64,000 nt of DNA from an uncultured Bacteroidia bacterium (GTDB lineage Bacteria > Bacteroidota > Bacteroidia > Bacteroidales > UBA932). Below, in pieces: positions 18,636 to 46,687 of the stretch. The translations under genes and the position numbers were made by a program. A model generated the notes under the pieces. It was not told the origin of the DNA and did no database searches. It was given only the letters and a program-made list of their open reading frames with translations. Numbering within the stretch: position 1 is the first letter of the stretch; every line of letters begins with the position of its first letter. Location: assembly GCA_902780935.1 (NCBI GenBank), contig CACZHP010000003.1, positions 44,131 through 108,130 of the forward strand, given 5' to 3'.

Positions 18636-19693
18636 AATGGGATGGCCCTGATGGCTTCGGCTACTTCCTCAAGGAGCCAGCGGGGGGTGGAGGTGGCGCC
18701 GCAGATTCCGACCCGGTCGTCCGGGCGGAACCATGAGGGGTCGATTTCCTCCGGGCTTGAAATATGATAGGTCCTTGTGTTCCTTGACCGGCAAAGGTCG
18801 CAGAGAACCTTACCGTTTGAGCTGGAAGCTCCTGACACAAAAATGATTATGTCGTGAGACTGGGCGAATGAAGAGAGTTCCTCATGCCTTGACGCCACTT
18901 GCGAGCAGATGGTATTGTGGACTGTCAGTCCGGCCTGAGCCTTTTCGGATAGCACGGCGCATATCTGGGAATATTCAGTCGGGCTCTTGGTCGTCTGGGA
19001 GAATATTTCCAACGGGACGTCGGTCCTGATTGTCCCGTTCTCCAGGGCAGTGAGAAGCATCTCCATATTCTCGATCACCACCGCGTCTCCTCCGACCTGT
19101 CCCAGCAGCCCCAGCACCTCGGCGTGGCCCACCTTCCCGAACACCAGCACCTGACCTTTGGACGCTGGCGCTGCCAGCTCCGGCGGCTCGACCGCCTCGC
19201 TCCGCTCGGCCCCACCGCTCGCGTCGCTTCGCTCCGCTCCGGTCCCCCCTCTTACAGTGCCGAGGGTGGCATGGGTCTCGCCATCCGGACTGGCAGCGCC
19301 AGCTCCTTCCGGCGGCTCGGCCAAACCGATGTTCAGCCGTGAATGCGCCTCCCGGATGCTCTGTTGGAGTTTAAGGACTACGGGACAGGTGCAGTCGATG
19401 ACATTGATCCCGACCTCCCGGGCCAGCTCGTAAGTGGAAGGCGGCTCACCGTGCGCCCTAATCAGAACTGTCTCATTCTCAGGGGTTTGAATATTACGGA
19501 TGTCATCTTTGCCGATCGTGACAAGCCCCTTGCGGCCGAGCCTTTCCAGCTCAGCCTCATTGTGGACTATAGACCCGAGGGAATACAGCTTCTTTCCTGG
19601 ATTCGCATCCAGGAATTCCTCCGCCTTGCTGATGGCCCTGATGACTCCGCCACAGAAGCCGGAGCGCTTGTCGATCTCGACGGAAAGAGCCAT
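18626..19693 (-). CDS. ispH: 4-hydroxy-3-methylbut-2-enyl diphosphate reductase with a repeat-encoded insertion
   Basis: Iron-sulfur enzyme for the last step of the MEP isoprenoid pathway, giving IPP and DMAPP. The start at 19693 (MALSVEIDKRSGFCGGV) overlaps the cmk stop by one base (TAATG). Cluster cysteines are seen in FCGGV (Cys14), DCTCPVV and TICSQVASRHEEL; HGEPP and FGKVGHAEVLGL are family motifs. Residues about 125-177, between SRL and KGQVLVFG, are an extra, low-complexity segment with ERSDA and ERSEA motifs, encoded by the repeat at 19164-19303. In other IspH proteins this joint is only a few residues. All catalytic motifs lie outside the insertion, so function may be kept. Confidence 0.93.
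   Translation of the reverse strand: MALSVEIDKRSGFCGGVIRAISKAEEFLDANPGKKLYSLGSIVHNEAELERLGRKGLVTIGKDDIRNIQTPENETVLIRAHGEPPSTYELAREVGINVIDCTCPVVLKLQQSIREAHSRLNIGLAEPPEGAGAASPDGETHATLGTVRGGTGAERSDASGGAERSEAVEPPELAAPASKGQVLVFGKVGHAEVLGLLGQVGGDAVVIENMEMLLTALENGTIRTDVPLEIFSQTTKSPTEYSQICAVLSEKAQAGLTVHNTICSQVASRHEELSSFAQSHDIIIFVSGASSSNGKVLCDLCRSRNTRTYHISSPEEIDPSWFRPDDRVGICGATSTPRWLLEEVAEAIRAIPLSF
19164..19303. repeat. 140-nt in-gene palindromic repeat element, copy in ispH
   Basis: An 84-nt core (19192-19275) matches the core in the rsmF-like gene (45492-45575): 31 nt identical, 14 nt variable, 39 nt identical. The flanking 28-nt arms are complementary to each other at their outer ends: GCTGGCGCTGCCAG (19164-19177) is the exact reverse complement of 19290-19303. 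A further direct repeat AGCTCC...CGGCGGCTCG (19176-19190 and 19301-19319) brackets the core, as a target duplication might. The element is read antisense to the core relative to the other copy and is open in both directions. Confidence 0.85.
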
Positions 19694-20379
19694 TATTCGA
19701 GAATCCCGAACTTGCCCTGGCAGAGCCCCTGGAACCATACGGTCTCCTCGTGGAGGGTCATGTCGGAATTGTCCAGGACGTAGGCGTCGGCAGCCCTTGA
19801 GAGAGGGGAGACCTCCCTGTGGGAATCGATATAATCCCTCTCGAGAAGATTCTTCATGACCTCTTCCATGACAGGCTCTTGCCCCTTGGCCTTCATCTCG
19901 TCAAAGCGCCTCTGGGCCCTGACCTCAGGAGTGGCCGTCATGAAGATCTTCACCTCGGCTTCGGGAAAGACAGTTGTGCCGATGTCTCGGCCGTCCATGA
20001 CGACTCTCTTCCTTTTGCCGAAGGCGTGCAGCCTCTCGTCCACGAAAGACCTGACGAAAGGAATCGCCGAGACCGGACTGACATGGCTGGAGACTTCCAG
20101 AGTGCGGATCTCCTGCTCGACACGGCGGTCCCCGATATAGGTCCCGTCAATCCTGAAGTCGAGGTCCAGGGTCTCGAGAGCGTTCTTCAGGCGAGCTTCG
20201 TCTATGGTTCCGGAGGCGTCGATAATCCCAGTCTCAAGAGCGTGGAGAGTGACTCCGCGGTACATCGCTCCGGAGTCCAGGTAAAGGAATGAATATTGCT
20301 CGGCTATAAGTTTAGCGAGCGTGCTTTTGCCAGTGGATGAGTAGCCGTCAATGGCTATGATGATATCAGGAATGTTCAT
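19693..20379 (-). CDS. cmk: Cytidylate kinase
   Basis: Phosphorylates CMP and dCMP to the diphosphates. The start at 20379 (MNIPDIIIAIDGYSSTGKST) gives 228 residues with the P-loop at residues 11-18; a longer open frame upstream would run into the divergent regulator gene and was rejected. Other family motifs are YLDSGAMYRGVTLHAL, the VMDGRDIGTTVFP segment and RAQRRFDEMKAKG. It is coupled to ispH by TAATG. The cmk-ispH pairing is a familiar arrangement in bacteria. Confidence 0.94.
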   Translation of the reverse strand: MNIPDIIIAIDGYSSTGKSTLAKLIAEQYSFLYLDSGAMYRGVTLHALETGIIDASGTIDEARLKNALETLDLDFRIDGTYIGDRRVEQEIRTLEVSSHVSPVSAIPFVRSFVDERLHAFGKRKRVVMDGRDIGTTVFPEAEVKIFMTATPEVRAQRRFDEMKAKGQEPVMEEVMKNLLERDYIDSHREVSPLSRAADAYVLDNSDMTLHEETVWFQGLCQGKFGILE

Positions 20380-20442
20380 AATGACAAAAATATCAAAATT
20401 CCCGGAAAAAGTCCGATATTCGCGTAAAGAAGTGATACTGAT

Positions 20443-21600
20443 ATGAAGATTCTTATAGTTGATGATGAGAGAGCCATAAGGAACTCTTTGGGCGAGATAC
20501 TCACGGATGAGGGTTATGAGGTTGACACCGCCGAGGATGGCGCTACCGCCCTTGCCAAGGTTGACAAGGAGCGTTTCGACGTGATTTTCTGCGACATCAA
20601 GATGCCCGGGATGGATGGGACTGAGGTCCTTGAGAAACTCGTAGCCGATGGCATAGATGCGGCCATAGTGATGATCTCCGGCCACGGGGACATCGACACA
20701 GCTGTCGAGTGCATCAAGAAAGGGGCCTTTGATTTTATCCAGAAGCCTTTGGATCTCAATAGGATACTTATCACCATAAAGAATGCCACCGAGCGTGCGG
20801 TCATAGTCAAGGAGAACCAGAGGCTTAAGAAGAAGGTCTATGGCCAGAAGATGATAGGGGAGTCGGAGCCTATCCGCCAGATAAGGGATATGATAGCGAA
20901 GGTCGCCCCGACGGACTCCAGGGTACTGATCATGGGTCCCAACGGATCCGGAAAGGAGCTTGTGGCCAGGAGTTTATATGAGCAGAGCGAGCGGAGCTCG
21001 ATGCCGTACATCGAGGTCAACTGTGCGGCTATCCCTTCGGAACTAATTGAGAGCGAATTGTTTGGCCATGAAAAAGGGTCATTCACGTCGGCTATCAAGC
21101 AGCATAAGGGAAAGTTCGAGCAGGCTGACGGGGGAACTCTCTTCCTCGATGAGATCGGCGACATGAGTCTCGCGGCCCAGGCCAAAGTCCTTAGGGTTCT
21201 TCAAGAGAAGAAACTCTCCCGGGTGGGCAGCGACAAGGATATCATGGTGGATGTCAGGGTCGTGGCAGCCACCAATAAGGATCTTCGCAAGGAGATTGAG
21301 AAGGGCAATTTCAGGGAAGACTTATATTACCGTCTCAGCGTCGTCGTCATAAAGGTTCCTTCCTTGGACGAGAGGAAGGACGATATTCCCCTGTTGGTGG
21401 ACCACTTCGTCCAGCAGCTCAGCTCCGAGAAGGGTATGCTCGCAAGACCGTTCTCCCCTGAAGCGATACAGCTCCTTCAGGAGAAGAGTTGGCCAGGGAA
21501 TATCCGAGAGCTTGGCAATGTGGTTGAGCGTCTGATGATATTCGGAGGCAATCCCGTCAGCGCGGAGGACGTCAGACTTTACGTCACTCCGATTCAATAG
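20443..21600 (+). CDS. NtrC-type response regulator lacking the DNA-binding domain
   Basis: Receiver domain (residues 1-120) with phospho-acceptor Asp51 in FCDIKMPG and an AAA+ domain (about 140-370). Walker A reads GPNGSGKE instead of the common GETGTGKE, and the sigma54-contact loop reads GSFTSA in place of GAFTGA; Walker B is GGTLFLDEIGDMS and WPGNIREL is present. The 385-residue protein stops at the point where a Fis-type HTH would begin. Similar HTH-less versions exist in Bacteroidota, which use few sigma54 systems, so its output may not be classical activation. No histidine kinase is adjacent. Its 3' end overlaps the convergent S41 gene by 17 nt. Confidence 0.88.
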   Translation: MKILIVDDERAIRNSLGEILTDEGYEVDTAEDGATALAKVDKERFDVIFCDIKMPGMDGTEVLEKLVADGIDAAIVMISGHGDIDTAVECIKKGAFDFIQKPLDLNRILITIKNATERAVIVKENQRLKKKVYGQKMIGESEPIRQIRDMIAKVAPTDSRVLIMGPNGSGKELVARSLYEQSERSSMPYIEVNCAAIPSELIESELFGHEKGSFTSAIKQHKGKFEQADGGTLFLDEIGDMSLAAQAKVLRVLQEKKLSRVGSDKDIMVDVRVVAATNKDLRKEIEKGNFREDLYYRLSVVVIKVPSLDERKDDIPLLVDHFVQQLSSEKGMLARPFSPEAIQLLQEKSWPGNIRELGNVVERLMIFGGNPVSAEDVRLYVTPIQ

Positions 21601-23158: not shown

Positions 23159-23160
23159 GT

Positions 23161-25238: not shown

Positions 25239-25242
25239 GGTA

Positions 25243-28130: not shown

Positions 28131-28135
28131 ATCGC

Positions 28136-28777: not shown

Positions 28778-28788
28778 ATCGTTGATTA

Positions 28789-30230: not shown

Positions 30231-30265
30231 CAAATATACTAAGAAATTATCTTTCATCCCACAAA
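30231..30265 (-). promoter_or_regulatory. Probable promoter for asnS
   Basis: TATATTTG on the minus strand (30231-30238) matches the Bacteroidota -7 box, with TTTG at 30262-30265. The 23-nt spacer is a little longer than the usual 19-21. ATTTGTGGGAT occurs twice here and again at the porin promoter, so the sequence just after the box is shared. asnS starts about 18 nt downstream. Confidence 0.6.
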
Positions 30266-30301
30266 TAAAACCGCCATCGCATGTCTAATCACGCGATGGC
30301 G
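30266..30301 (-). terminator. Rho-independent terminator of the 30.4-33.4 kb gene group
   Basis: A perfect 9-bp stem CGCCATCGC / GCGATGGCG (30272-30280 and 30293-30301) with a 12-nt loop, followed on the minus strand by GTTTTATTT. It lies about 60 nt after the stop of the small protein fragment and immediately before the asnS promoter. Confidence 0.8.
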
Positions 30302-30362
30302 ATAGTAAGATATCCCGCTTGTCCGGATTATGGTCAAGCGCCAACTCTTTTTGTTATTGGAT

Positions 30363-30962
30363 TTAATAATAATTATCGTAAGGAGTCTTGCCCGCAAACA
30401 GAATAGCAAGAGTTGTCCCGTCGTTCAGGAGTATCCGGATATCGATCTTCGCATCATCATTTACTGTGTACCCATCCGCTTGGTAAGTCGAGAAATTGTA
30501 CGAGTTTATCTTCACATCCTTGACCAATTCGTTTCCTCCTTCATATTCTCCTTGGTTCATGGGTATTCGCATATTCTCTCCATAACCCATAGAAGGATCC
30601 AACCATATATTGATAAGATCAATATACTGACCTGGAGCGGTGTATTCGGTTCCTTTGTGACGGAATCCGCTAATATAGATCATCTCTTTGACCTCATCCC
30701 ACCTGGGGCCTTCCGTGAAGGCTTCCTTATAGAAATGGCAGCGATGTGATGATCCTTTCATAGGATCAGCTATAGCACCTCCGACAAAAACGGAACCGAT
30801 CGGAAATGCCTTCTCGGATCCTATCGACAATTTGTTTTTTGTCTTGACCTCGGTTCCATCAGTATTATGGATAACAAGTACCTGATTCAGGATACCGTTA
30901 TCATCGTCAGGCCACTCGTAATCAATAGATTCTTTACAAGAAAGCTTGAAATCAAATAATTC
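30363..30962 (-). pseudogene. Start-less remnant of a small secreted protein, paralogue of the gene at 32886
   Basis: The frame is open from a TAG at 30963-30965 to the stop at 30363 and has no ATG or GTG; the only near-start is a TTG at 30830 in mid-protein. The encoded sequence begins LFDFKLSCKES and goes on to GTEYTAPGQYID, QGEYEGGNELVKDVK and a hydrophobic end, which aligns with the protein at 32886-33449 (GIEYKDF, QGEYKGENPLVKDVK). The similarity begins at the lipobox cysteine, so exactly the signal peptide is missing. It lies 12 nt after the lipoprotein gene. It may be dead, or expressed from a rare start. Confidence 0.6.
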
Positions 30963-30974
30963 CTAATAAATCTA

Positions 30975-31754
30975 CTACTGCAGTCCTTTTTGAATGTTGA
31001 ACGTGCCTGTCAGGACTTTTTCCTCTACAGGTATCTCCGCATTAGGATTATTCAATCTGTCGCCCAACCATTTCAGATACATTACTGCTTTAACAGGAAC
31101 TTTTATTGTAAATGTAACATCCTCATCAACTATCTTGTGACCTCCACAAGGATAGGTGAAAAAAGGCCCCAATGGACTAGCTGAGACCATGTAGTCAGCC
31201 TTGAATTTATCCAGCAAAGGGATGTAGCAGTTTTCGCTGGGCACCAAAACGCTGTTATAATCGATGATGCTTCCGAAGGGGATAAGATTTTCTCCCGCTT
31301 TGTGACCGCCGAAATCCTTGTCCGCAGTAAGAATAATCCCCTCATCATAATAAATGGTAGTTACGCATTCAGCCTTTTTATGATCCCAAAAGTCATCGAA
31401 CAGCCGGTCGTACTCTTTACTTATAGCCGTTGCTTGGGATCCGAACGCGCTAAAGGCCCATTGTGGTGGTGTAACTTTGACATCTTTAGCTCCCTGTATC
31501 GTTGGGATCAATCCCTTAATCCTCAAACCTTCCTCCCTGTAATCCATTATCGGCTTAAAGTAGAAATTGAAACTCTCGCCAGTAATTGTAAGTTTCGTTG
31601 AAAGAGACTCACTTTCCAAACACTCGGCCGTCAGAAAGGTATAATACTTTGGATCAGGTAAAGAACACCCCGAAAAGAACAGAATGGCCATTACAAAAGC
31701 GGGGATGCTTTCCAAAAACCGTCCATTTATTTTATTCAGATATTGAAAACCCAT
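30975..31754 (-). CDS. Lipoprotein of unknown function
   Basis: A 259-residue protein with a lipoprotein signal ending FFSGC (Cys30). No family is recognised. The mature part is beta-rich, with paired cysteines in SENCYIP and TYPCGGH. Its ATG lies 23 nt inside the 3' end of the broken C10 peptidase gene, so it was probably translated by coupling to that gene. The position between a cysteine peptidase and two small related proteins suggests a role in the same system, but nothing in the sequence shows it. Confidence 0.7.
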   Translation of the reverse strand: MGFQYLNKINGRFLESIPAFVMAILFFSGCSLPDPKYYTFLTAECLESESLSTKLTITGESFNFYFKPIMDYREEGLRIKGLIPTIQGAKDVKVTPPQWAFSAFGSQATAISKEYDRLFDDFWDHKKAECVTTIYYDEGIILTADKDFGGHKAGENLIPFGSIIDYNSVLVPSENCYIPLLDKFKADYMVSASPLGPFFTYPCGGHKIVDEDVTFTIKVPVKAVMYLKWLGDRLNNPNAEIPVEEKVLTGTFNIQKGLQ

Positions 31755-32811
31755 AAATTATCTTACGGTTATGATTGTAATTATACACTCCTCCATTAGT
31801 AACTTGCCATCCGTCGGTTAGAGTATACCATCCGTCGTTCAAAGGATTGTCACCCCATTGAGAAGACCATCCCCAGTTTATCTTTATGGCTGTAATATCT
31901 GTTGACGAATACGTGTAGGTTACATAATCCCCATGGGGCCAAATACCTCCGTCCTCAAATTGGCCGGTAGTGTCCAAGAATAACTATTATTATAATGCAT
32001 CCCTGTAAGCGCGCCGATGTGTCCAATCATGAGCGCTACTGCATTTCCGGAGTCAAAAGTTGGAGGATAACTTGAACTCATAGAAGTCCATATCGAAGTA
32101 TTCGCTGAATAGAATGATCTGGTAAAGCTGTTGATATTACCATAACAATAACCCTCACTGACCATGGTTGCAGGAACGCCCAAATGATTATGTAGATAAT
32201 ACAGCATCTCTGCTCCCGCCACAGCCACACATCCAGCTGGAGCTCTTTCTGTAGAGCTATTGCTCTTCAGAGGGCAATATAGGTTATAAGGCTGATGCTG
32301 ATACCATGGAGGAGTTAAATGATCAACTTCTTCCCCAGAAAGCCATGTTGGCTGCGATTTGATCTCTAGAGAATATAAGTGCTTCATTTTCTGAATGTCG
32401 TATAACGGATAAATCTTGGGCGATGCAATCCATCCATAATCTCACCGACTGGTTCTCTGAAGCCAATGTAAATGTCCCAGCTTCACTCTCTGCAATAATT
32501 GCCGGTGTGCGACAATCCGCAGAAATGATTTTCCACCCATCTCCTTCTCCAAAATTAATGATGTACATTAGAGTGTCAGCATTATCCCCTATTATAGGGT
32601 TGATAGAAAAATCATGTTCGCCATTGCCGCGTGTTTGAGGAAAAACTTGTGACGCAAAGTCTTCTATTTGACGCAGATTGACGAAAGAATCGTTGAGTAC
32701 GTGAGGTTCAATTTGATTGTTATCCTCAGGATTATCAAGTGGTTCTTCATGACTACATGAAATAAAACCGCAAGCGATGAGGGCTGTGAATAATAATCGT
32801 ATTGTTTTCAT
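31732..32811 (-). pseudogene. C10 (streptopain-like) cysteine peptidase, broken by frameshifts
   Basis: Three overlapping open frames on the minus strand together resemble one C10 peptidase. Frame 1 (32323-32811) has a lipoprotein signal (LIACGFISC) and the propeptide-like inhibitor domain. Frame 2 (31920-32387) has VDHLTPPWYQHQPYN and the catalytic Cys in APAGCVAVAGAEML. Frame 3 (31732-31977) has NWGWSSQWGDNPLNDGWYTL and the terminal YNYNHNRKIIYGF. Joining needs two frame changes, in 32323-32387 and 31920-31977. The usual GGHAWVxDG segment with the catalytic His is absent at the second joint, so a deletion of roughly 60 codons is likely. Sequencing error could explain the shifts but not the missing segment. 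Confidence 0.78.
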
Positions 32812-32885
32812 TTTTTATCGTGTAAATCCAATAATTACAGAATCTTGCATATCTTTTGTCAATATCTTTGCGTGACAACGCAAAA

Positions 32886-33449
32886 TCAAAGATAACCATC
32901 TACCTTTGTTGACCCGATATAGTGAATATGCATTAGCCGTCCATCCGTCAAAGTAATTTTTATTTCAATTCTGAATAATTCATTTTTATCCTCATCGCCA
33001 AATTTGACAAGTTTCACATCTTTTACTAAAGGGTTCTCTCCCTTATACTCGCCTTGAGTTATTTTGACTCGTAATTCTTTTCCTATCCCAGAAATTTCGT
33101 CGGGAAAATGGATAACGATTTGATCAACCGACTGCCAGAAGTCTTTGTATTCTATTCCATAATACCTGGTGCCGAAAATTTGGACAGTTGCGGAGGGATC
33201 GTTAGTATCGTAAGGATAGTTAGGTATTTCTTCCCAGGCTTGCTCATACAGCGTGAAATGGAATCTAGATTTGGTTTTGGGCTGTCCACCTCCGACTCCT
33301 CCCCAAAAAGAGGATCTAAGAGAAACAATGTTTTTCCCTTCCAAGTACACGGCATTCGGACTTGTATCTTTTGGAGTCCAATTCCCTTTTTCACAAGAGT
33401 TTATGGCTACTAAAGAGACAATTAAAAACAAGGTGACAACTCGTTTCAT
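32886..33449 (-). CDS. Small lipoprotein, possible protease inhibitor partner
   Basis: A 187-residue protein with lipoprotein signal (VAINSC, Cys19). The mature part is predicted beta-rich and shares QGEYKGENPLVKDVK and flanking segments with the start-less frame at 30363-30962. Both bracket the C10 peptidase. C10 peptidases of streptococci and Bacteroides fragilis are known to be encoded next to small beta-barrel inhibitors; whether this family is one is inference. I do not recognise it by sequence. It lies 74 nt upstream of the peptidase remnant. Confidence 0.65.
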   Translation of the reverse strand: MKRVVTLFLIVSLVAINSCEKGNWTPKDTSPNAVYLEGKNIVSLRSSFWGGVGGGQPKTKSRFHFTLYEQAWEEIPNYPYDTNDPSATVQIFGTRYYGIEYKDFWQSVDQIVIHFPDEISGIGKELRVKITQGEYKGENPLVKDVKLVKFGDEDKNELFRIEIKITLTDGRLMHIHYIGSTKVDGYL

Positions 33450-33541
33450 AGATGGCTTATGTGTTTAGTTATTCAAGAGCCTCAAAATTGTAAAGCAATT
33501 TAAGCAAAAACTGGTAGGCATAGGTTCCTTCTGGATTCCAA

Positions 33542-33620
33542 CTGGAGAGCGCTTTTTATTTTTGTGAAAGGAAAAATCGTGACAAGACGGCCTAAAACAG
33601 CCTTAAATAATCCTCTTTGT
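33542..33620. repeat. 79-nt direct repeat, copy 1 (downstream of serpin)
   Basis: Identical over 79 nt to 35147-35225, with weaker similarity for about 20 nt more. On the minus strand the copy contains codons ending KEDYLRLF-stop, which is the C-terminus of the TPR regulator at 35197-36861; here they are a remnant without a gene. With the second copy it brackets the serpin gene. The remaining 33450-33541 and 33621-33654 hold nothing else I can identify. Confidence 0.9.
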
Positions 33621-33654
33621 GTCGGGATTCTAAATCGACTTTGTTATGATCAAA

Positions 33655-34905
33655 TTATAATGGAGAACCAGTGAATGCCCCGATGAAAACGACGAGTCCG
33701 GATCCGGTTTCTGATATAGTGTAAAGGAAAGGACTGTTTGCGGTGAAGTGTTCAATTTGGTCATCAGACCTCCCAGGTGAAGTGTAAATCCCGGTTTGTG
33801 TTACGGCCGCTGCGGAAGCCCCGTCTTCGTTCATCAGGAAGGTCACTTTCTGAGCGAGCACGTCAAATGGATTAATGCCATCCTTATACTCATACCCTAG
33901 AAGCATTTGTCGGGTATATGACGAAGAGAAGACCGGGATAGACAAAGCGATTGTTTTCTTTACAAGACTTGACCGCATAGTGTCCCAGACCTTTGAGTCA
34001 AGTTTTTCAAGAAGGCCTTTCACATCAAATGCTGTATTGGGAAGGATAATAGAGAAACTGTAAGTGCCATCTCCGAAAGGAAGGCTTACAGAGGAGAAAT
34101 CCTGATTTTTGAAGTAATTGAATTTTCCCGTCTTATTCATCATTGAAACTTGAGTCGATTCTTTCGTGTTGACAAAAAAACGATTCTGGGTTGTCAGACT
34201 CTTGTCAAACTTGTCCTGCCACTCTCCATTGAAACAAATTGCGTTCAGCAATGATGACTGCGTTTCTTGTATTGAAAAAGGTGCCGACTTGATCATGCCT
34301 CCGGTCTTCTCCTGGCACCATAAATCCTCTGGACGGCTTCCTACCGGCTGATCTGAAATAGAGGCGGCAACTATTTCCAGGTAATCGGCGTAATAGCTGG
34401 TTTTAAGGATATCCATAAACTCTTCAGGATACTTTTTCGCTTTTACATCCGACATGAGGGCATTCGCCATTTTAAGTTCCTTGCCGCATTTTTCTCCGGA
34501 GAAATCCTCTATTAGATGCTTGAAATAACCGTTGACTTCTCCGATGGTCTTCCCTTTGAAACCGAGCATCTCGCATAAGGGCATATCATCTTTCACAAGG
34601 TTTCCTATCATGGCCAGTGTCATTTGGATTCCCAGTGGGCTGAGAAGCATATTGGATCCGACTTCATAAACGTTTCGGAAATAACGGAGAGAGAACTCAT
34701 TCGAGGGAGCGATCATATTTTTCTCAGAATCCGGGAGAGTTAGCCTTGTCTGGGGAAGAACGACTCTGTCATTTTGAATCTCATTTTGTGGTTCTTCCTG
34801 TATTAAGGGCTTTCCCGTAGAAATGGAATCATCGAGAGCGTCGCACGATCCGAAGAACGCCGATATAACTAATAATATTTCAGTAAAGCGAACAGTCTTT
34901 TTCAT
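33655..34905 (-). CDS. Serpin (serine/cysteine protease inhibitor), lipoprotein
   Basis: A 416-residue serpin with a lipoprotein signal (FFGSC, Cys21) and a 40-residue linker before the serpin fold. Family motifs are SNMLLSPLGIQMTLAMIGN, NAICFNGEWQDKF and the C-terminal HFTANSPFLYTI with FIGAF. The hinge of the reactive loop reads NEDGASAAAVT, with small residues as in inhibitory serpins; the scissile region is about TGIYTSPGR. Surface display on the outer membrane is inferred. It could protect the cell from host or own proteases. It is the only gene between the two 79-nt repeats. Confidence 0.92.
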   Translation of the reverse strand: MKKTVRFTEILLVISAFFGSCDALDDSISTGKPLIQEEPQNEIQNDRVVLPQTRLTLPDSEKNMIAPSNEFSLRYFRNVYEVGSNMLLSPLGIQMTLAMIGNLVKDDMPLCEMLGFKGKTIGEVNGYFKHLIEDFSGEKCGKELKMANALMSDVKAKKYPEEFMDILKTSYYADYLEIVAASISDQPVGSRPEDLWCQEKTGGMIKSAPFSIQETQSSLLNAICFNGEWQDKFDKSLTTQNRFFVNTKESTQVSMMNKTGKFNYFKNQDFSSVSLPFGDGTYSFSIILPNTAFDVKGLLEKLDSKVWDTMRSSLVKKTIALSIPVFSSSYTRQMLLGYEYKDGINPFDVLAQKVTFLMNEDGASAAAVTQTGIYTSPGRSDDQIEHFTANSPFLYTISETGSGLVVFIGAFTGSPL

Positions 34906-35196
34906 CGCACTAAAATGATTATTGATCTATCTATCTAAACCCCGATATTTCAAAACCTTGCATCAATCTATCTTAATTATTGCCCAGTTGTCCAGCAGAA
35001 AGGTTGTAGAAAATCATTATATTATTGTTTAGACCTTCTTCCCAACCGTTTCCATCACAAAGTTCGACATAAAAACAATCGTCTGCCACATTTTACGCCA
35101 TTTAAATCGTGACAAATCACCCTAAAAAAAACGCCCTTCCAGGGGCCTGGAGAGCGCTTTTTATTTTTGTGAAAGGAAAAATCGTGACAAGACGGC
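34906..35196. other. Non-coding stretch between serpin and TPR regulator
   Basis: About 290 nt, AT-rich, with no supported gene. It contains the terminator at 35124-35166, most of the second 79-nt repeat, and two copies of the 12-mer AAATCGTGACAA (35104-35115, 35179-35190). I saw no good -33/-7 pair for the serpin. Confidence 0.6.
35124..35166 (-). terminator. Rho-independent terminator after the TPR regulator
   Basis: On the minus strand a GC-rich hairpin centred on TCCAGGCCCCTGGA is flanked by A-rich sequence and followed by GGGCG and eight T residues. It lies about 40 nt after the regulator's stop. The half that overlaps the 79-nt repeat is duplicated downstream of the serpin, but there without the opposite arm. 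Confidence 0.75.
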
Positions 35197-35225
35197 CTAA
35201 AACAGCCTTAAATAATCCTCTTTGT
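35147..35225. repeat. 79-nt direct repeat, copy 2 (3' end of TPR regulator)
   Basis: Contains the last ten codons and stop of the TPR regulator plus about 50 nt downstream. Identical to 33542-33620, 1605 nt away. The arrangement suggests duplication of the regulator's 3' end at the time the serpin segment arrived, or loss of a second regulator copy. Confidence 0.9.
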
Positions 35226-36861
35226 ACCGAGACTCTGAATCAACAATCTTCGCCTTAAGCCTGCTTTTCATCTTGCGGAAGTTGTCTCCAGAGGACACGT
35301 TCATGATTACAGTCGCGACGGTGTTATCGAATCCGGCGAATACCAGGCATGCCATATTATACTCTTTCTCTGAGAGGTTGGGAAAATCCTGGCGAAACTT
35401 AGTCATTATGCCTCCCATCTCCTTGTCAACCAAGCCTTCTAGGCTCTTGCGGGCAGCTTGCCTTGTTCTTAGATCCCCAATCCTTGAGCGGATTATCTTG
35501 TTTAGTCTACTGTCATTATCTAGTGTCCCGCCGTAAGGCAGATAGAACTCTTCATAAATATCAGCAAGGAAGGAGAATTTCGCCCTTGTTTTGTCTAGAA
35601 ACACATTATCCAGGCGATTCTCCATTTGGGACATCTCAGACCTCAGGAGTTTGACGGCGGTATCCTGCCGCTCCTTCTCAACTTCAAGTGACCGGATTCT
35701 CTTTTTATACAATACAATTATATTGCTGGCTGCCAACACGACTGTCAAGAGCAAAAGAAACACTATGACAATTATGTTGTTCCTGTTCCTTAGAGTCAAC
35801 GCTCTCTCCCGGCTGAAACTCTCTAAAAATGCCCGTTGTGAATTAGCCGCCGAACGTGCGTAAGCCTCCCTTGTTATTGTGTCTCTGACCTGTGTCGCTG
35901 ACCACAAAGCATGATATGCTTTCTTGTAGTCTTTGTTTGAAATAGCATCCCTGTGCCTCCAATAATGATATGCGTACTCATCCTGCTCCGTAAGGCAATT
36001 TATCTTGGACCAGATGTCCTCGGCTTCCTTGTGTTTGCCCATTTTAGAGAGCAAGTACGCATAGGCGAAATAGTATGTTCTTCCCGGAAGAGGAACTCCT
36101 TCAGACAGCGATTCTGACATCAATGAATACGCGAGAGTGTCATCCTGAAAAGGGGAAGACAGCAGGAAAAGGGAGTAGTCCGCATCAATCTTTCTTCTGA
36201 AAGCGGGGCTTATGGTTGTGTCTGAGACCAGATCACGGAAAGTTGTTCTCGCATCGTCCCATCTCCGTAATTGTATTAAGTTCAGGGCTTTACGTACCCG
36301 TTCTTTATCTTCTTGATCCTTTCTGCCACAGGCCCTGAAGCATCTCAGCGAACGTTCTATATAATCTGATGCGACGGCATGTTCCTGTGTCTTGGTGAAG
36401 GTGTCGGCCATAATTGAATAAAGGACCCCCAAGACATTTTTGTCTTTGATCTCGTCGGCATTTACACTGGCGCGGTAGAAAGAAACAATGGCCTCATTGT
36501 ACCTTCCCCCGTTGAATTGCTCAATACCGAAGTACATCCATGCCTTGAGTCTCTCCTCCGGGTCACCATGGCGGTCGTACCAGTCCACCGCTGGCTGGGC
36601 GATCCGAGTGTCGGCGGTGTCGATATAGTTCTTGTCCAGGGCGGCGGCGTGGAGCAGGGAGAACTTGGCTCTAGCCGCCTTTCCCCTGAGAGATGCGGTG
36701 TCTATCTGCCGGATCAGAGCCAGGGCGCTGTCCGGACGGCTGTCGAGGATGGACTCGATGTCGGCGAGATACTGACGATTAAAGTTCCTTCCGCAGGATA
36801 TGAGGAAGACGAGTCCGATGCACAATAATAGTATCCGCACTAAAAGCTTAAAGAACCGCAT
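35197..36861 (-). CDS. Membrane-anchored TPR transcriptional regulator-like protein
   Basis: A 554-residue protein of a type common in Bacteroidota: a signal with lipobox-like LISCGRN (Cys23), TPR-type helices over residues 30-340, one membrane helix at about 365-388 (NNIIVIVFLLLLTVVLAA), a coiled coil (390-425), and a C-terminal helix-turn-helix-like part (about 485-540; FPNLSEKEYNMACLVFAGF ... NFRKMKSRLKAKI). The topology puts TPRs outside and HTH inside. It may sense a signal and control the protease-inhibitor genes downstream. Promoter at 36891, terminator at 35124. Confidence 0.8.
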   Translation of the reverse strand: MRFFKLLVRILLLCIGLVFLISCGRNFNRQYLADIESILDSRPDSALALIRQIDTASLRGKAARAKFSLLHAAALDKNYIDTADTRIAQPAVDWYDRHGDPEERLKAWMYFGIEQFNGGRYNEAIVSFYRASVNADEIKDKNVLGVLYSIMADTFTKTQEHAVASDYIERSLRCFRACGRKDQEDKERVRKALNLIQLRRWDDARTTFRDLVSDTTISPAFRRKIDADYSLFLLSSPFQDDTLAYSLMSESLSEGVPLPGRTYYFAYAYLLSKMGKHKEAEDIWSKINCLTEQDEYAYHYWRHRDAISNKDYKKAYHALWSATQVRDTITREAYARSAANSQRAFLESFSRERALTLRNRNNIIVIVFLLLLTVVLAASNIIVLYKKRIRSLEVEKERQDTAVKLLRSEMSQMENRLDNVFLDKTRAKFSFLADIYEEFYLPYGGTLDNDSRLNKIIRSRIGDLRTRQAARKSLEGLVDKEMGGIMTKFRQDFPNLSEKEYNMACLVFAGFDNTVATVIMNVSSGDNFRKMKSRLKAKIVDSESRYKEDYLRLF

Positions 36862-36890
36862 ATGTATCTTGTTCTATTTGGTAGCTAATT

Positions 36891-36921
36891 CAAATATAAT
36901 AAAAAAGAGGCTGAACCTCAA
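36891..36921 (-). promoter_or_regulatory. Promoter for the TPR regulator
   Basis: TATATTTG on the minus strand (36891-36898) with CTTG/TTG at 36919-36921, spacer 20 nt. The -33 element falls in the loop of the exbD terminator hairpin. The ATG lies 29 nt downstream of the -7 box. Confidence 0.7.
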
Positions 36922-36939
36922 GAAGTTCAGCCTCTTTTT
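36901..36939 (-). terminator. Rho-independent terminator of the exb operon
   Basis: Perfect 12-bp stem AAGAGGCTGAAC / GTTCAGCCTCTT (36905-36916 and 36925-36936), 8-nt loop, flanked by A and T runs on either side so that it can act in both directions. It lies 22 nt after the exbD stop at 36962. Confidence 0.9.
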
Positions 36940-36961
36940 CTTATTGTAATGTCCTGACGGG

Positions 36962-37423
36962 TTACTGTCCTTTCTTACGGGCAGCGTACATAATCTTAAG
37001 GGCGGAGCAGCGCCTGAGCTCCTGCTTCACGTCCGTTACGATACCCATCCTGACATCCTCGTCAGCTTTAATGTCGACCTGCATCAACTGTCTGTCGGCC
37101 TCGCTCATGGCTTCACGCTCGGCGGCGATAAAGTCACGGATGTCGTTGGTGGTCTTGAAGGAGTCATTGAGCTGGATCCTGGCCTCGGTTCCGTACTGGC
37201 CCTGATACTGGGCGGTAGGGGAGCCGATGTAGATGTAGGAAGCCAGGTCTTTCCTTTCAAGTTTCGCGACCTCGGTAGCCTCAGGAAGATGCACCTTGAC
37301 CTTGACTTCACTCGAACGCATCTGCGTTGTCACCATGAAGAAGAACAGGAACATGAACACGATGTCGGAGCTTGTCCCAAGCTCGGGCATGTCTTTTTTA
37401 CCGCTTCTTTTGAAAATAGGCAT
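36962..37423 (-). CDS. ExbD/TolR family protein (second copy)
   Basis: A 153-residue inner-membrane protein: short cytoplasmic N-terminus, one helix (SSDIVFMFLFFFMVTT, with the conserved Asp that carries protons), and a periplasmic domain. It works with ExbB to energise TonB-dependent transport. It lies 17 nt after another exbD, and the terminator follows. Two exbD genes with one exbB is a usual Bacteroidota layout. Confidence 0.9.
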   Translation of the reverse strand: MPIFKRSGKKDMPELGTSSDIVFMFLFFFMVTTQMRSSEVKVKVHLPEATEVAKLERKDLASYIYIGSPTAQYQGQYGTEARIQLNDSFKTTNDIRDFIAAEREAMSEADRQLMQVDIKADEDVRMGIVTDVKQELRRCSALKIMYAARKKGQ

Positions 37424-37440
37424 GTGTTGGTCCTCCTGAA

Positions 37441-38019: not shown

Positions 38020-38028
38020 AGCCGGAAA

Positions 38029-38448: not shown

Positions 38449-38486
38449 TGTTAAAAGACTCTAAAGGTTGTTACAACTAAAGATTA

Positions 38487-39263: not shown

Positions 39264-39387
39264 AACCGTTTTCGTGTGTTTTAATTAATAAAGTATTAAA
39301 TAGTTATATTTTTCTTCTCGATTTCTTGATCCCAAAACCTTACAAAAAACCGTTGCAATTTACTAAATAATTTTCAAAAGGCAAGAA

Positions 39388-41192: not shown

Positions 41193-41221
41193 ATCCCAAA
41201 GATACTCATTTTTCTTTCATT

Positions 41222-42394: not shown

Positions 42395-42416
42395 AGTTTT
42401 ATAATAAATAGTGGTA

Positions 42417-43466
42417 TCAGACGACTAGCATGGCGTCGCCGTAAGGGCCGAACCGATAGTCCTGCTCCAGGGCGACCTTATACGCGTTCATCACCTTGTC
42501 GAAGCCTCCGAACGCTGCGACCGCCATCAGCATGGTCGACTCCGGAAGATGGAAACCGGAGACGATGGCGTCAGGGATCGAGAACTCATAAGGGGGGAAT
42601 ATGAACTTGTTGGTCCATCCGTCGTATGGCTTGACCTCATGGGTAGTGGTGACATAAGTCTCAAGGCCCCTCATCACGGTCGTGCCGATGGCTACGACCT
42701 TGTGGCCGCCGTTCTTGGCCTTGTTGATGATCCGGCAGGCCTCCTCGCTGATAATCAGGCGCTCGGAGTCCATGCGGTGCTTTGAGAGGTCCTCCACATC
42801 GACCCTGCGGAACTGCCCGATGCCCATGTGTACGGTGATGAATGCTTTGTCTATATCCTTGAGGATCATTCTGTTGAAGAGCTCACGGCTGAAGTGGGTG
42901 CCTGCGGCCGGCACTGCCACGGCGCCCTCGTGGGCGGCGAAAATCGTCTGGTAATTCTCCTTGTCCTCAGCGGTCACCTTGCTCTTTACCCACTTCGGGA
43001 CGGGCAGCTCTCCAAGGCTGAAAAGCGACTGCTTGAAATCCTCGTATGACCCGTCGTAGAGGAAACGCAAGGTGCGTCCCCTGGAGGTCGTGTTGTCGAT
43101 CACCTCGGCCACAAGGCTCTGGTCCTCACCGAAATAAAGCTTGTTGCCAATCCTTATCTTCCTTGCGGGATCCACTATCACGTCCCAGAGATGCTGCTCC
43201 CTGTTGAGTTCCCTCAAGAGGAAGACCATGATGTCAGCTCCGGTCTTCTCTTTCTTCCCGTAGAGCCTCGCGGGAAAAACCTTCGTGTCGTTGAGGACGA
43301 AGGTGTCGCCCTTCCCGAAATAATCTATGATGTCCTTGAAAAGCCTGTGCTCGATCTCGCCTGTGTCCTTGTGGACAACCATAAGCTTGCATTCGTCGCG
43401 CCATCTTGTGGGCTCCTGAGCCACGCGCTCCTTGGGGAGGAGGAACTGGAATTGGGAGAGTTTCAT
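42417..43466 (-). CDS. queA: S-adenosylmethionine:tRNA ribosyltransferase-isomerase
   Basis: Makes epoxyqueuosine in tRNA by transferring the ribosyl part of SAM to preQ1 at the wobble position. The 349-residue length fits. Family blocks are DTFVLNDTKVFPARLYG, AAHEGAVAVPAAGTHFS, VHMGIGQFRRV and the C-terminal GFHLPESTMLMAVAAF. The first gene of the queA-dprA-tatD-ansA run, 24 nt after the NUDIX gene. Confidence 0.95.
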   Translation of the reverse strand: MKLSQFQFLLPKERVAQEPTRWRDECKLMVVHKDTGEIEHRLFKDIIDYFGKGDTFVLNDTKVFPARLYGKKEKTGADIMVFLLRELNREQHLWDVIVDPARKIRIGNKLYFGEDQSLVAEVIDNTTSRGRTLRFLYDGSYEDFKQSLFSLGELPVPKWVKSKVTAEDKENYQTIFAAHEGAVAVPAAGTHFSRELFNRMILKDIDKAFITVHMGIGQFRRVDVEDLSKHRMDSERLIISEEACRIINKAKNGGHKVVAIGTTVMRGLETYVTTTHEVKPYDGWTNKFIFPPYEFSIPDAIVSGFHLPESTMLMAVAAFGGFDKVMNAYKVALEQDYRFGPYGDAMLVV

Positions 43467-43490
43467 AAAAATCTATTATTCCGATACTTT

Positions 43491-44123
43491 TTATATACGG
43501 ACATTGTCTGGGAAATGTTTCAATTCCCTGAATACTTCCACGATGGATGGATAGGTGTTCTTGAGATATGGGGCCAGACCAGAGCGGGCGACCCAGGCGG
43601 CCTTGGTGATGTCTTCCTCCCGCTGGGGAGTGAGATCTACCGGATCGGTATAGAGCATGTCGTACCACCAGGTGTGCTTGAGATGCCAGATGTCGTTCCT
43701 GCGGTAGCAGTGGTCGGTGACGCATATCAGCTGTCCGAGCTCGAGGTTCGGGATCCCGGTTTCCTCCTCCACCTCCCGAAGGGCGGTGACCGCGATGTCC
43801 TCTCCAGGTTCCTGGTGCCCTTTCGGAAGGTCCCACAGCCCATTCCTGCGGATCAGCAGGGCATCCCCGCGCCGGTTGGAGACCAGGCCTCCAGCCGCGT
43901 TGACCTCCTTGAAACAGGAACGGAAGGCCCCGTAAACACCCTCTATGTCCGTGGTCGGAATATATATCCTCGACAGCGACTCGGACGACTCGAACATGTC
44001 CACAAGAGGCGGGATGCCGTCAGCGCCTCCGAAATGGAACTCAACCGAGTTGGGATCGGAAAGGGCCGGCTCATCGGGCAGGCAGATCACAATGCATCTC
44101 TTTTCCAGGTAGATCTTGCGCAT
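43491..44123 (-). CDS. NUDIX hydrolase
   Basis: A 210-residue protein with a NUDIX box of the form G-x5-E-x7-REVEEETG at about residues 105-127, preceded by LWDLPKG. The N-terminal 85 residues are an extra domain without recognised motifs. Substrate unknown. It is divergent from pyrE, with a 60-nt gap. It is not fused to an HTH domain, so it is unlikely to be the arabinose repressor AraR of Bacteroides. Confidence 0.85.
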   Translation of the reverse strand: MRKIYLEKRCIVICLPDEPALSDPNSVEFHFGGADGIPPLVDMFESSESLSRIYIPTTDIEGVYGAFRSCFKEVNAAGGLVSNRRGDALLIRRNGLWDLPKGHQEPGEDIAVTALREVEEETGIPNLELGQLICVTDHCYRRNDIWHLKHTWWYDMLYTDPVDLTPQREEDITKAAWVARSGLAPYLKNTYPSIVEVFRELKHFPDNVRI

Positions 44124-44141
44124 CTTGATGATTAAAATAGC

Positions 44142-44149
44142 TATATTTG
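44142..44149 (+). promoter_or_regulatory. Probable -7 box for pyrE
   Basis: TATATTTG matches the Bacteroidota TAnnTTTG consensus, 34 nt before the pyrE ATG. A CTTG at 44115-44118 is the best -33 candidate but leaves a 23-nt spacer. Confidence 0.5.
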
Positions 44150-44183
44150 TAAGCTACGGCGCGAATTTAAGAAATCATTTGGA

Positions 44184-44822
44184 ATGAATATGGAACATAT
44201 AGACAGAAAACTGGCGGCGGGGCTGCTTCGGATAGGTGCGGTCCTGCTCCGGCCTGATGAGCCTTTCACCTGGGCTTCCGGCTGGCATTCCCCGATTTAT
44301 TGCGACAACCGCCGGATCCTTTCAGACCCGGATCTGCGCTCGATGGTGGCCGAGGCCTTCGCGGGGAAAGTCGCCGAGCTGTACCCTGAAGCTGAGATTG
44401 TCGCCGGAGTGGCTACAGGGGCTATCGCCCATGGTGCCCTTGCGGCTGACCGTCTGGGCAAGCCTTTTGTCTATGTGCGTCCAAAGCCGAAGGATCACGG
44501 GACCGGCTCCCAGATTGAGGGAAGCCTTCCCGAAGGGGCGAAAGTGGTTGTCATTGAAGACCTTGTCTCGACCGGGATGAGCAGTCTCGCCGCCGTGGAG
44601 GCGTTGCGTAAGGCCGGGGCCGAGGTGCTCGGGATGGTGGCTATATTCACCTACGGGTTCGACATCGCGGCCCAGAGGTTCGAGGAGGCTGGGGTGCGGC
44701 TGGATACCCTCTCCAACTACGGCGCGCTTATTGAAGAGGCGACCGCCGAGGGGATTGTGGGGCAGGCCGAGTCGGGTTTGCTCAGGGAATGGCGGGAGGA
44801 TCCCGCCGGCTGGGGCAGATAA
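44184..44822 (+). CDS. pyrE: Orotate phosphoribosyltransferase
   Basis: De novo pyrimidine enzyme making OMP from orotate and PRPP. The 212-residue protein shows FTWASGWHSPIYCDNR for substrate binding, the flexible catalytic loop with RPKPKDHGTG, and the PRPP motif VVVIEDLVSTGMSS. Starts are possible at 44184 or two codons later at 44190. The SRPBCC gene follows after 14 nt. Confidence 0.96.
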   Translation: MNMEHIDRKLAAGLLRIGAVLLRPDEPFTWASGWHSPIYCDNRRILSDPDLRSMVAEAFAGKVAELYPEAEIVAGVATGAIAHGALAADRLGKPFVYVRPKPKDHGTGSQIEGSLPEGAKVVVIEDLVSTGMSSLAAVEALRKAGAEVLGMVAIFTYGFDIAAQRFEEAGVRLDTLSNYGALIEEATAEGIVGQAESGLLREWREDPAGWGR

Positions 44823-44836
44823 TTAATTAAGGTAAT

Positions 44837-45322
44837 ATGAATACGGAGATAAAAAGTAAGCATGGGATAGTCTCGAAGTCACCTTTCGAGCTTTATATGG
44901 CGTTCGTGGACATGAGGAATTTCCTCCAGATGCTTCCTGAGGACAAGAGGCAGGGAGTGGAGGCTGACTATGACACGATCACCGCCACCGTCCAGGGTTT
45001 CAAGATCGGGATAATGGTCAGGGACAGGGTCCCTTATTCGCTGATCCAGTTCGTGGACAACGGGGCTCCGTTCAGTTTCGGAGGCTCGCTCCATTTCGAT
45101 GCCGTTCCGGACGGCTCCCAGCGGACGGACTTCCACGTGGAGCTCCACGCTGACCTCAATCTGATGATGAAGATGATGCTCAGCGGCAAGATCAAGGAGG
45201 CGCTTGACAAGGTCGTGGACGGGCTCGTGTCGGTCTCGGAGGGGAGGATGCCCGAAGGGATCGATGAGGAGACCATGCGCAAGATGCAGGAGGAACTTGC
45301 CAAGAGGCAGGGACAGGCTTAG
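44837..45322 (+). CDS. SRPBCC superfamily protein
   Basis: A 161-residue protein with the START/polyketide-cyclase type fold in outline: KSPFELYMAFVDMRNFLQMLP, then beta strands and a long C-terminal helix. The superfamily binds hydrophobic ligands; function here is unknown. It lies between pyrE and the rRNA methyltransferase gene, 6 nt before the latter, so it is likely in the same transcript. Confidence 0.75.
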   Translation: MNTEIKSKHGIVSKSPFELYMAFVDMRNFLQMLPEDKRQGVEADYDTITATVQGFKIGIMVRDRVPYSLIQFVDNGAPFSFGGSLHFDAVPDGSQRTDFHVELHADLNLMMKMMLSGKIKEALDKVVDGLVSVSEGRMPEGIDEETMRKMQEELAKRQGQA

Positions 45323-45328
45323 CGGCTG

Positions 45329-46687
45329 ATGGAGGGAATCGCGGACAATGTCCTGATGGACATCCTTTCAAGGGCGGTCGGGCCCGAACGCGCCCGCATC
45401 GCCTTCGACGCCCTTTCCCTTCCCCCATCTGTCTCCATCAGGTACAATCCATTGAAGTTCAGGTCAGACCAGAAGGGCCTTAGGGGCGCAACCGCCTCGC
45501 TCCGCTCGGCCCCACCGCTCGCTTCGCAAAGCGAAGCTCCGGTCCCCCCTCTTACAGTGCCGAGGGTGGCATGGGTTGCGCTCCCTAAGCCCTTCTGGTC
45601 TGACGAGCCCAGCAATCGGGTTCCGTGGTGCGAGTACGGGATGATGCTCCAGGAGCGGCCGAGGTTCGTCATGGATCCGCTGTTCCACGCCGGCTGCTAC
45701 TATGTCCAAGACTCGTCCGCGATGGTCGTCGGCCATATCCTCCGGGAACACCTCGACCATTTCGATGACCTCGGGCGTCCGATCAGGGTTCTCGACCTGT
45801 GCGCCGCTCCCGGCGGGAAGACAACCGACATCTCCACCTCGCTCCGCGATCGATTCGGAGACTCTTTCCAACTTGTCGCCAACGAGGTGATGAGAAACCG
45901 TGCGGCCGTACTGGCCGACAACGTCGCCATCTGGGGCGACCCGAATGTTGTTGTGACTTCTTGTGATCCTAAGGCTTTTTCCCGGCTTGAGGGCTATTTC
46001 GACATAATCGTGACGGATGTTCCTTGCTCTGGCGAGGGCATGTTCCGTAAGGATCCGAAGGCGGTCGAGGACTGGTCTCCCGAGGCGGTTGACCTCTGCA
46101 GCGCCAGGCAGAAAAGGATTCTCGCCGACGTGTGGCCAGCTCTTCGGCAAGGAGGCCTGCTCGTGTACTCCACATGTACTTTCGAGGAAGCTGAGAACGA
46201 TGCCAATGTCGAGTGGACTGCTTCGGAGCTTGGGGCGGAAGTAATTGATTATGAATATTCAAAGCTCCCTGGGGTGATTGAGACCAGGACGGGGGGACTG
46301 CTTGTGCCCGGATTCGTCAAAGGAGAGGGGCAGTTCGTGTCAGTATTGAAGAAGACCTCTTCCCAGGGCTCTTCGAGGCAGGGAGTGGAGACGCTCCGTC
46401 CCTTGAGGAACGGACTTGTGAAAGGTGTCACCAAAGGCCGGGACTTCATCCCGTCCTCAGACTGGGCGCTCAGCATCGATCCTCCCATAAACGAATATCC
46501 TTCAGTGGAGCTGGATAAGGACATCGCCCTTAAGTATCTCCATCGGGACGGCATATTCATTGAAGGACAACCGGAAGGCTACCTGTTGGTTTGCTTCGAA
46601 GGGCACCCCCTCGGGTTTGTCAAGAATATCGGCAGACGGTGGAACAATCTCCACCCGATTGAAAGAAGAATAAGAATAGATTTATGA
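45329..46687 (+). CDS. RsmF-type rRNA cytosine-C5 methyltransferase with a repeat-encoded insertion
   Basis: A 452-residue SAM-dependent methyltransferase of the RsmB/RsmF/NOP2 family. Motif I is VLDLCAAPGGKTTD (about residue 155); the two catalytic cysteines lie in DVPCSGEGMF (about 230) and YSTCTFEE (about 280). The C-terminal part resembles the RsmF-specific domain. Residues about 46-92, between the N-terminal SIRYNPLKF and VPWCEYG, are encoded by the 140-nt repeat at 45464-45603; other family members go directly from one to the other within few residues. Catalytic motifs are outside the insertion. It overlaps the next gene by 4 nt (ATGA). Confidence 0.9.
   Translation: MEGIADNVLMDILSRAVGPERARIAFDALSLPPSVSIRYNPLKFRSDQKGLRGATASLRSAPPLASQSEAPVPPLTVPRVAWVALPKPFWSDEPSNRVPWCEYGMMLQERPRFVMDPLFHAGCYYVQDSSAMVVGHILREHLDHFDDLGRPIRVLDLCAAPGGKTTDISTSLRDRFGDSFQLVANEVMRNRAAVLADNVAIWGDPNVVVTSCDPKAFSRLEGYFDIIVTDVPCSGEGMFRKDPKAVEDWSPEAVDLCSARQKRILADVWPALRQGGLLVYSTCTFEEAENDANVEWTASELGAEVIDYEYSKLPGVIETRTGGLLVPGFVKGEGQFVSVLKKTSSQGSSRQGVETLRPLRNGLVKGVTKGRDFIPSSDWALSIDPPINEYPSVELDKDIALKYLHRDGIFIEGQPEGYLLVCFEGHPLGFVKNIGRRWNNLHPIERRIRIDL
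45464..45603. repeat. 140-nt in-gene palindromic repeat element, copy in the rsmF-like gene
   Basis: The two 28-nt arms (45464-45491 and 45576-45603) are near-perfect reverse complements, starting TCAGACCAGAAGGGC and ending in TCTGGTCTGA. Between them is the 84-nt core (45492-45575) shared with ispH. The variable centre here forms its own hairpin, GCTTCGC-AAA-GCGAAGC. The arms bear no resemblance to the arms at ispH. The segment is open in the gene frame (SLRSAPPLASQSEAP then VPPLTVPRVAW), although 140 is not a multiple of three, so the exact insertion ends must differ. Confidence 0.87.

Follow-up and report, generated by a model that had tools for sequence, protein, structure and literature searches.

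Two copies of a palindromic DNA element, one within ispH and one within an rsmF-like gene, are found in a stretch of 64,000 nucleotides (nt) from an uncultured Bacteroidia bacterium (GenBank assembly GCA_902780935.1, contig CACZHP010000003.1, positions 44,131 to 108,130; the whole stretch is called the window in the following). Each copy consists of a core enclosed by two arms that pair with each other, and both are best read as members of a family of small and mobile DNA palindromes that measure, with their arms, about 120-150 nt, sit in frame in coding sequences, are invertible and have their arms rewritten. The element appears to spread, since copies at unlinked sites have the core and the inner arms in common, and the family is so far known from one genus-level group of gut Bacteroidales, which may be Cryptobacteroides. 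We regard template switching as the probable process behind such a mobile coding palindrome, with its rewritten arms and flipping core.

Both copies lie where a preliminary description, made from the letters of the window, had put them, with the arm-core-arm layout proposed there (Table 1). Matches to the LytB/IspH and RsmF domains confirm the two hosts, and the core does run in opposite directions in them, antisense in ispH and sense in the rsmF-like gene. By eye, the two cores are identical over stretches of 32 and 41 nt, which are separated by 13 nt that differ, a trivial departure from the 31, 39 and 14 nt counted earlier. As had been described, the arms pair within each locus and differ between loci; in a repeat search, complementarity is 77% over 30 nt in the ispH copy, where 14 nt at the outer end pair perfectly by eye, and 87% over 31 nt in the rsmF copy. 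In the left arm of the ispH copy, the inner part (gccagctccggcggctcg) is common to other copies in the genome and the outer part is locus-specific. A 21-nt string of the core has 2 matches in the window when up to 3 mismatches are allowed (expectation from 100 shuffles, 0.00) and, folded as single-stranded DNA, the rsmF copy reaches a z of -7.47 (0 of 200 shuffles as good) and the ispH copy one of -3.09 (1 of 200). An alignment places the IspH insert between conserved blocks, at a position where relatives and PDB 3dnf have a gap.

The two copies are far from alone, a possibility that the preliminary description had left to a search. In the window's own genome (G000, 3.05 Mb in 82 contigs), the ispH copy finds 51 BLAST matches at E ≤10, of which 26, both window copies included, cover at least 70 of the 140 query bases; the flanks of these copies are unlike between loci yet pair within each locus. 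With the rsmF copy as query (E ≤1), matches were obtained in 19 of 25 genomes of the genus, G000 included, and outside the genus in 2 of 16 genomes, where they are 16-19 nt long. A strict pattern for the 3' part of the core, which also picks up a second, related hairpin family, is present in 113 of 200 genomes of the genus (31 times in G000, 27 in G058 and 25 in G017), compared to 0 for a reversed-pattern control. A pattern scan of genome_contigs returned at least 116 stretches (L171-L286), and the titles of the 116 listed all refer to Bacteroidales, Bacteroidia or Rikenellaceae metagenome-assembled genomes (MAGs), with isolate names that are mostly ruminant. Carriage by phages was considered and rejected, as the exact core pattern gave 0 matches in a scan of viral_contigs.

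The pairing of the arms is a general property of the family, in line with the expectation of the preliminary description. Of the 199 distinct anchors whose flanks were long enough, which include 6 of the second-family type, 195 have complementary arms (score ≥24), compared to 51 of 3980 mismatched partners (1.3%), and the mean arm-pair score is 42.6 for own arms and 14.1 for mismatched ones. When partners are ranked, the own right flank comes out best for 24 of 26 copies in G000 and for 53 of 78 copies from genome_contigs, leaving 2 and 25 copies where it does not; in this ranking, copies with a short core have their inner left arm clipped by the span compared, and related copies act as competing partners. 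Arms are 17-45 nt long (median 31 nt), and cores mostly 60-82 nt, with a few of up to 138 nt. The core comprises a hairpin I, the trinucleotide CCC, a hairpin II, the segment CCCCTCCCTCTTA (or CCCCCCTCTTA) and a hairpin III with the loop GAGGG. In a set of 42 diverse cores (45 picked, 3 unused), CCCTCT, the GAGGGT loop and a GCC/GGC stem are invariant, and hairpin I and the base of hairpin III vary in a compensated way: of the 693 cells of core pairs, 94.7% do pair and only 6 are G-U; 75 cells are changed on both sides (shuffle mean 21.2, at most 13 when the alignment is slid); and 8 of the 17 pairs are changed on both sides (shuffle mean 5.4). The GAGGG loop of hairpin III could pair with the upstream CCCTC in a possible pseudoknot, to which covariation lends no support within the 42 cores because CCCTC::GAGGG never varies there; a compensated variant, CCCGC::GCGGG, occurs in L028. 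Membership in a known structured RNA family was rejected, as none of the 4 Rfam matches obtained for 8 loci (E up to 5) reached the gathering score.

The element occurs within genes in both orientations, and in each with a preferred reading frame. Among the 184 copies whose flanks were long enough, a long frame (at least 220 codons) clearly encloses 73, of which 34 are in sense and 39 in antisense orientation; 21 are ambiguous and 90 lie outside such a frame. The frame is constant per orientation in 32 of the 34 sense and 33 of the 39 antisense copies (counts that are not independent, as some sites are common to several copies), and the encoded peptides resemble STASLRSAPPLASLRSAPVPPLTVPRVAWV and ETHATLGTVRGGTGAERSEASGGAERSEAVE. 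Across 166 distinct cores, each sense frame taken alone is free of stops in 127-137 and all three are in 75, so the choice of the sense frame is not due to stops; in antisense, where the used frame is most often open (149 cores, compared to 100 and 42 for the others), stops may contribute to the choice. Ten hosts confirmed by Pfam are IspH, RsmF, TrmO, PurH, MetH, a GH3 glycosidase, a periplasmic binding protein, two Fe-S proteins and a GHMP kinase, to which FtsK and, for a second-family copy, RsmA are added. The insert is also found between genes, and four such intergenic copies (L159, L165, L313 and L152:15252) start a few bases past a stop codon, with long arms that pair almost perfectly.

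The same sites are found filled, empty or inverted in relatives. The closest relative found, G058 (94% identity in RsmF), could be compared by eye at 23 element loci of G000, seven more having no ortholog in the stretches compared. At these loci, G058 keeps 9 elements in the same orientation and 1 fragment, has 4 inverted (L010, L011, L018 and L023; in L011 and L023 the asymmetric ends of the arms flip along with the core), shows at L002 and L004 the reversal of a block made of the element and a second hairpin family, retains at L001 (ispH) and L005 (trmO) only a small palindrome without core, and carries a different hairpin or sequence at L006, L007, L013, L021 and L022. Further genomes extend the picture: the ispH site holds no insert in G049, G016, G076, G019, G013 and G044; the rsmF site is filled in the same orientation in G000, G058, G017, G065 and RGIG2653, filled in the inverted orientation and with other arms in G088 and G049, and empty in G020; the purH site is filled in G000, G065 and G088, in two orientations and with three arm sets, occupied by another family in G058, and empty in G017, G049 and G020; and the trmO site is empty in G017, G065, G049, G088 and G020. 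Empty orthologs, sought on the suggestion of the preliminary description, thus exist for both ispH and rsmF, and the assembly artefact that it had considered is unlikely because independent assemblies carry inserts at the same sites. No target site duplication, of the kind that marks MITEs, was evident by eye at two comparisons of empty and filled sites.

Over the whole collection, copies linked through both host flanks form 45 same-orientation pairs, one of which (L006/L007) is a paralog pair within G000, and 42 inverted ones; these counts are descriptive, pairs sharing branches and sites. They fall into 34 site clusters, 12 with same-orientation pairs only, 11 with inverted pairs only and 11 with both, so that 22 have at least one inverted pair.

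At such shared sites the arms change together. The outer arm of the rsmF copy reads GTCAGACC in G000, GTCTTCCC in G017, GCCATCCC in G065 and TCCTCCCC in RGIG2653, and each is paired by its own opposite arm. The matched fraction of the arm length is 0.882 within copies (n=197), compared to 0.488 between same-side arms at shared sites (174 comparisons; median identity of the weaker flank 80%). Compensated double changes number 21 in same-orientation pairs (21 alignable of 45), where 0.8 are expected under independence, and 10 in inverted pairs (14 alignable of 42), where 0.4 are expected; uncompensated double changes number 1 and 2, respectively. Where new arms may come from is best seen in ftsK, where one core has three arm pairs in three species: in G000, the right arm equals ordinary host sequence over 28 of 28 nt, a stretch that begins 21 nt beyond the G058 arms; in RGIG2644, one arm equals ordinary host sequence of both G000 and G058 over 37 of 38 nt; and in both G000 and RGIG2644 the opposite arm is an inverted copy of the host-like one. 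A systematic test for arms derived from the host flank gave 5 hits at score ≥14 among 110 cases of unrelated arms (controls 0 and 1), three of the five at FtsK. Borrowing of arms from elsewhere was also considered and rejected: an 18-nt arm of G088, searched in 6 genomes at 2 mismatches, found its own two arms and one match in G058 (reversed control 2), and 14 of 179 arms were strongly matched away from element anchors in the 2.27 Mb examined, a number that includes the same sites in relatives and other hairpins.

In the mechanism that we propose, the stable core lying between inverted repeats would make a replicating polymerase switch template frequently inside the element. A switch within the arms would correct one arm from the other, which would be why they change together; an intermolecular switch would flip the core; and a switch running past an arm would copy the adjacent host sequence in inverted form and thereby produce new, locus-specific arms. 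That genes tolerate the insert would follow from its coding capacity, since in either orientation it gives a short peptide that keeps the reading frame of the host. The available part of a study of yeast genes reports that template switching between short inverted repeats gives arm homogenisation and spacer inversion (PMC8604942), and such switching has been proposed to create and maintain hairpins (PMC8794818, in the part available). Two traits of this process are present here, namely arm homogenisation with compensated changes and spacer inversion, the latter in the 42 inverted pairs; a third, the making of a new arm as an inverted copy of adjacent sequence, is seen at the FtsK site and not at two further sites, A and B. 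The copying looks like an ongoing template-switch process and not, or not only, like a step of insertion. The free orientation of the element within genes makes an RNA role unlikely, and the 6 G-U cells of 693, set against 75 changed on both sides, likewise point to an element acting at the level of DNA. More tentatively, and with less confidence than in template switching itself, the core might be the cis-acting driver of the switching: a compact, possibly pseudoknotted DNA fold that would flip itself, overwrite host flank with inverted copies and make new protein loops in essential enzymes, and whose spread may use the same transposase-free chemistry.

Several observations weigh against this account. 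All named genomes are MAGs, and switching is read from assembled sequence alone; the shared-site pairs are not independent of each other; and none of the insertions seen is a fresh one with a target duplication. One-sided arm changes (26 in same-orientation and 14 in inverted pairs) exceed the compensated ones, and arm mismatches, taken relative to the core strand, comprise 63 G-T and 110 A-C. Inverted copying of host flank is directly evident at one site, FtsK, and we infer it for the others. Even there, the left arm of G000 is in part similar to the left flank of the host as well (score 12), and the copying may have been preceded by a weak inverted repeat; at sites A and B, the arms are absent from the empty relatives. 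In the cores, further pair types are in no clear excess (17 compared to 15.2 in shuffles, 79 of 500 of which reach 17), and the structure was drawn from the same sequences used to test its pairing. Finally, the spacer inversions in yeast span 2-5 bp in the part of the study available (PMC8604942), compared to a spacer of 60-80 nt here.

Of the two causes put forward in the preliminary description, inverted copying of the target is the better supported. The other, compensatory selection, holds that a functional structured element needs a long stem, so that once one arm has mutated, selection favours the matching change in the opposite one; we consider it unlikely as the main cause, though the strongest of the rivals. 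It would accommodate the covariation of the core (8 of 17 pairs and 75 cells changed on both sides) and the compensated double changes of the arms, and the invariant unpaired CCCTCT and the GAGGG loop look like a recognition sequence. However, the element stands in genes in both orientations (34 and 39 copies) and its core flips between species, so that the copies cannot all share a function tied to one strand of the transcript; G-U pairs are few in the core; many orthologs are without the whole insert, which is therefore dispensable; and at FtsK the arms are replaced by neighbouring host sequence. Inverted copying is favoured over selection for an mRNA hairpin because the FtsK arm equals the host flank of a sister species and the core inverts between species. 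A function at the DNA level, as a cruciform or a single-stranded hairpin, is possible, as is selection on a DNA hairpin, given the compensated double changes, and the latter could add to template switching. Insertion into pre-existing hairpins, with arms older than the insertion, is a very improbable alternative: the short core-less palindromes at the trmO and ispH sites of G058 and the left FtsK arm of G000 would agree with it, but the other relatives have no such palindrome at trmO, ispH, site A or site B, and the short palindromes hold arm-like sequence and look like remnants of deletion.

Two explanations would instead involve a dedicated enzyme. Flipping of the core by a site-specific recombinase that acts between the repeats, the process behind phase-variable promoters and intragenic invertons, fits a core flanked by inverted repeats, the orientation differences in 42 shared-site pairs and a frame that is open in either orientation. 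We give it little credence nonetheless, as the arms differ between sites and an invertase recognising them would find nothing constant to bind, so that it would have to act at the ends of the core, and as the concerted change of the arms would be left unexplained. It is likewise improbable, if slightly less so, that a Y1 (TnpA_REP-like) transposase moves the elements, as in REPIN/RAYT systems. Y1_Tnp matches occur in 9 of the 12 genomes tested (8 over the cut-off); 8 of these 9 have copies of the strict pattern and the three genomes without Y1 (G083, G013 and G018) have none. Against this, G020 has a Y1 gene and no strict-pattern copy; the four Y1 genes examined closely adjoin, by eye, different hairpins of their own; the element about 1 kb from Y1 in G000 and G049 sits in the neighbouring rsmA (RrnaAD match for G000); and element-like anchors were seen in 4 of 20 Y1 regions, one of them weak. 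The Y1 (RAYT-type) transposases thus co-occur weakly with the element but do not look cognate to it. By eye, the RAYT-type Y1 genes at L352, L355, L360 and L366 are flanked by AT-rich hairpins of their own, such as TGCATGGTAGATTCTACCATGCA.

Table 1. Parts of the two element copies and their host genes, in positions of the window.
Feature	Position	Strand	Remarks
ispH copy, left arm	19164..19193	+	30 nt; computed inverted repeat
ispH copy, core	19194..19273	+	80 nt; antisense to ispH
ispH copy, right arm	19274..19303	+	30 nt; computed inverted repeat
Host gene ispH	18626..19738	-	Pfam LYTB match split into two stretches; conserved product starts at about 19693
RsmF-gene copy, left arm	45463..45493	+	31 nt; computed inverted repeat
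RsmF-gene copy, core	45494..45573	+	80 nt; sense to gene
RsmF-gene copy, right arm	45574..45604	+	31 nt; computed inverted repeat
Host gene rsmF-like	45329..46687	+	RsmF by Pfam

Other hairpins use the same insertion places. In the window, a composite hairpin insert of another type (14416..14600 on the minus strand, extent by eye) lies in dnaX (13926-15722, minus strand), where G058 has the present element; beside the insert, the window retains 26 nt of that element's left arm without a change. At least two further hairpin families, one with CTCTTACGAGCCGAGGGTGGCT and one with CCTCGCTTCGCTGCGGCTGAGTACGGCC, are found at such places (L151-L170, L002, L004, L006, L007, L013, L021, L030 and L352), and neither string occurs in the window at up to 3 mismatches. 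A 27-nt repeat, TGTCATTCTGAGCG(A/G)AGCAAAGAATCT, lies at 2786-2812 and 14573-14599 of the window, and similar strings stand beside elements elsewhere. The window also differs from G058 by a block of about 6.7 kb (30239-36962) that is not at this place there, with a serpin gene, a partial C10 peptidase, a Spi-type inhibitor and a 98-nt repeat (at 33542 and 35147, 94% alike), and by a junction at about 17962-17979 where G058 has about 2.8 kb extra.

In the literature searched, Rickettsiales are the group from which such in-frame coding palindromes are described, and hairworm mitochondria provide an analogue. With its many copies and the dense sampling of species, this large family of ruminant-gut Bacteroidales brings two questions within reach of a test: how essential genes acquire and tolerate such inserts, and whether it is selection or mutation that maintains long matched stems. 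The family is also a caution that covariation, often taken to prove an RNA structure, can have its origin in DNA, and it provides a natural source of in-frame loop variation through inversion.

Among known systems, invertons, including intragenic ones, resemble the element in having a segment between inverted repeats and both orientations inside genes, but differ in that the sites here have no repeat sequence in common. A 2024 paper by Chanin et al., cited in PMC11868660, is said to be the key one on intragenic DNA inversions. REP and REPIN sequences with their RAYTs are likewise GC-rich hairpins that are dispersed and carry no gene themselves, but here many copies lie inside genes and the Y1 genes examined do not look cognate. 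Quasi-palindrome correction shares the homogenisation of arms and the inversion of the spacer, also in coding genes, but concerns, in the available part of its description, scattered repeats with spacers of 2-5 bp (PMC8604942), compared to a conserved and dispersed core of 60-82 nt here. In nematomorph mitochondria, long and nearly always perfect inverted repeats in coding genes are gained and lost between species, with arms changing together, and template switching is named as a cause (PMC6649704, in the part available); these are animal mitochondria, and that part mentions no shared core.

The closest analogy is that drawn in the preliminary description, which aptly named the Rickettsia palindromic elements (RPE) and knew of no named equivalent in Bacteroidota, in agreement with the open-access literature, where none is among the matches listed. 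RPEs and the Wolbachia palindromic elements (WPEs) are, in the available parts of two sources, palindromic repeats of 100-150 bp in several families, lying in genes with the frame intact and encoding a conserved peptide (PMC10969869, PMC3767692), and both traits, the dispersed palindrome of about 100-150 nt in frame within genes and the conserved peptide, are found here. As to a further RPE-type trait, insertion at the same locus in orthologs, 34 site clusters are shared, but many orthologs are empty, inverted or otherwise filled. Unlike RPEs, the present element belongs to another phylum and has its core in both orientations, inverting at shared sites; and, in contrast to RPEs, which according to part of one report lose the identity of their repeats over time (PMC6649704), its arms stay complementary (0.882) even where same-side arms at shared sites match at 0.488. 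The element thus works like an RPE and like a template-switch repeat, and we do not count it as a member of the former.

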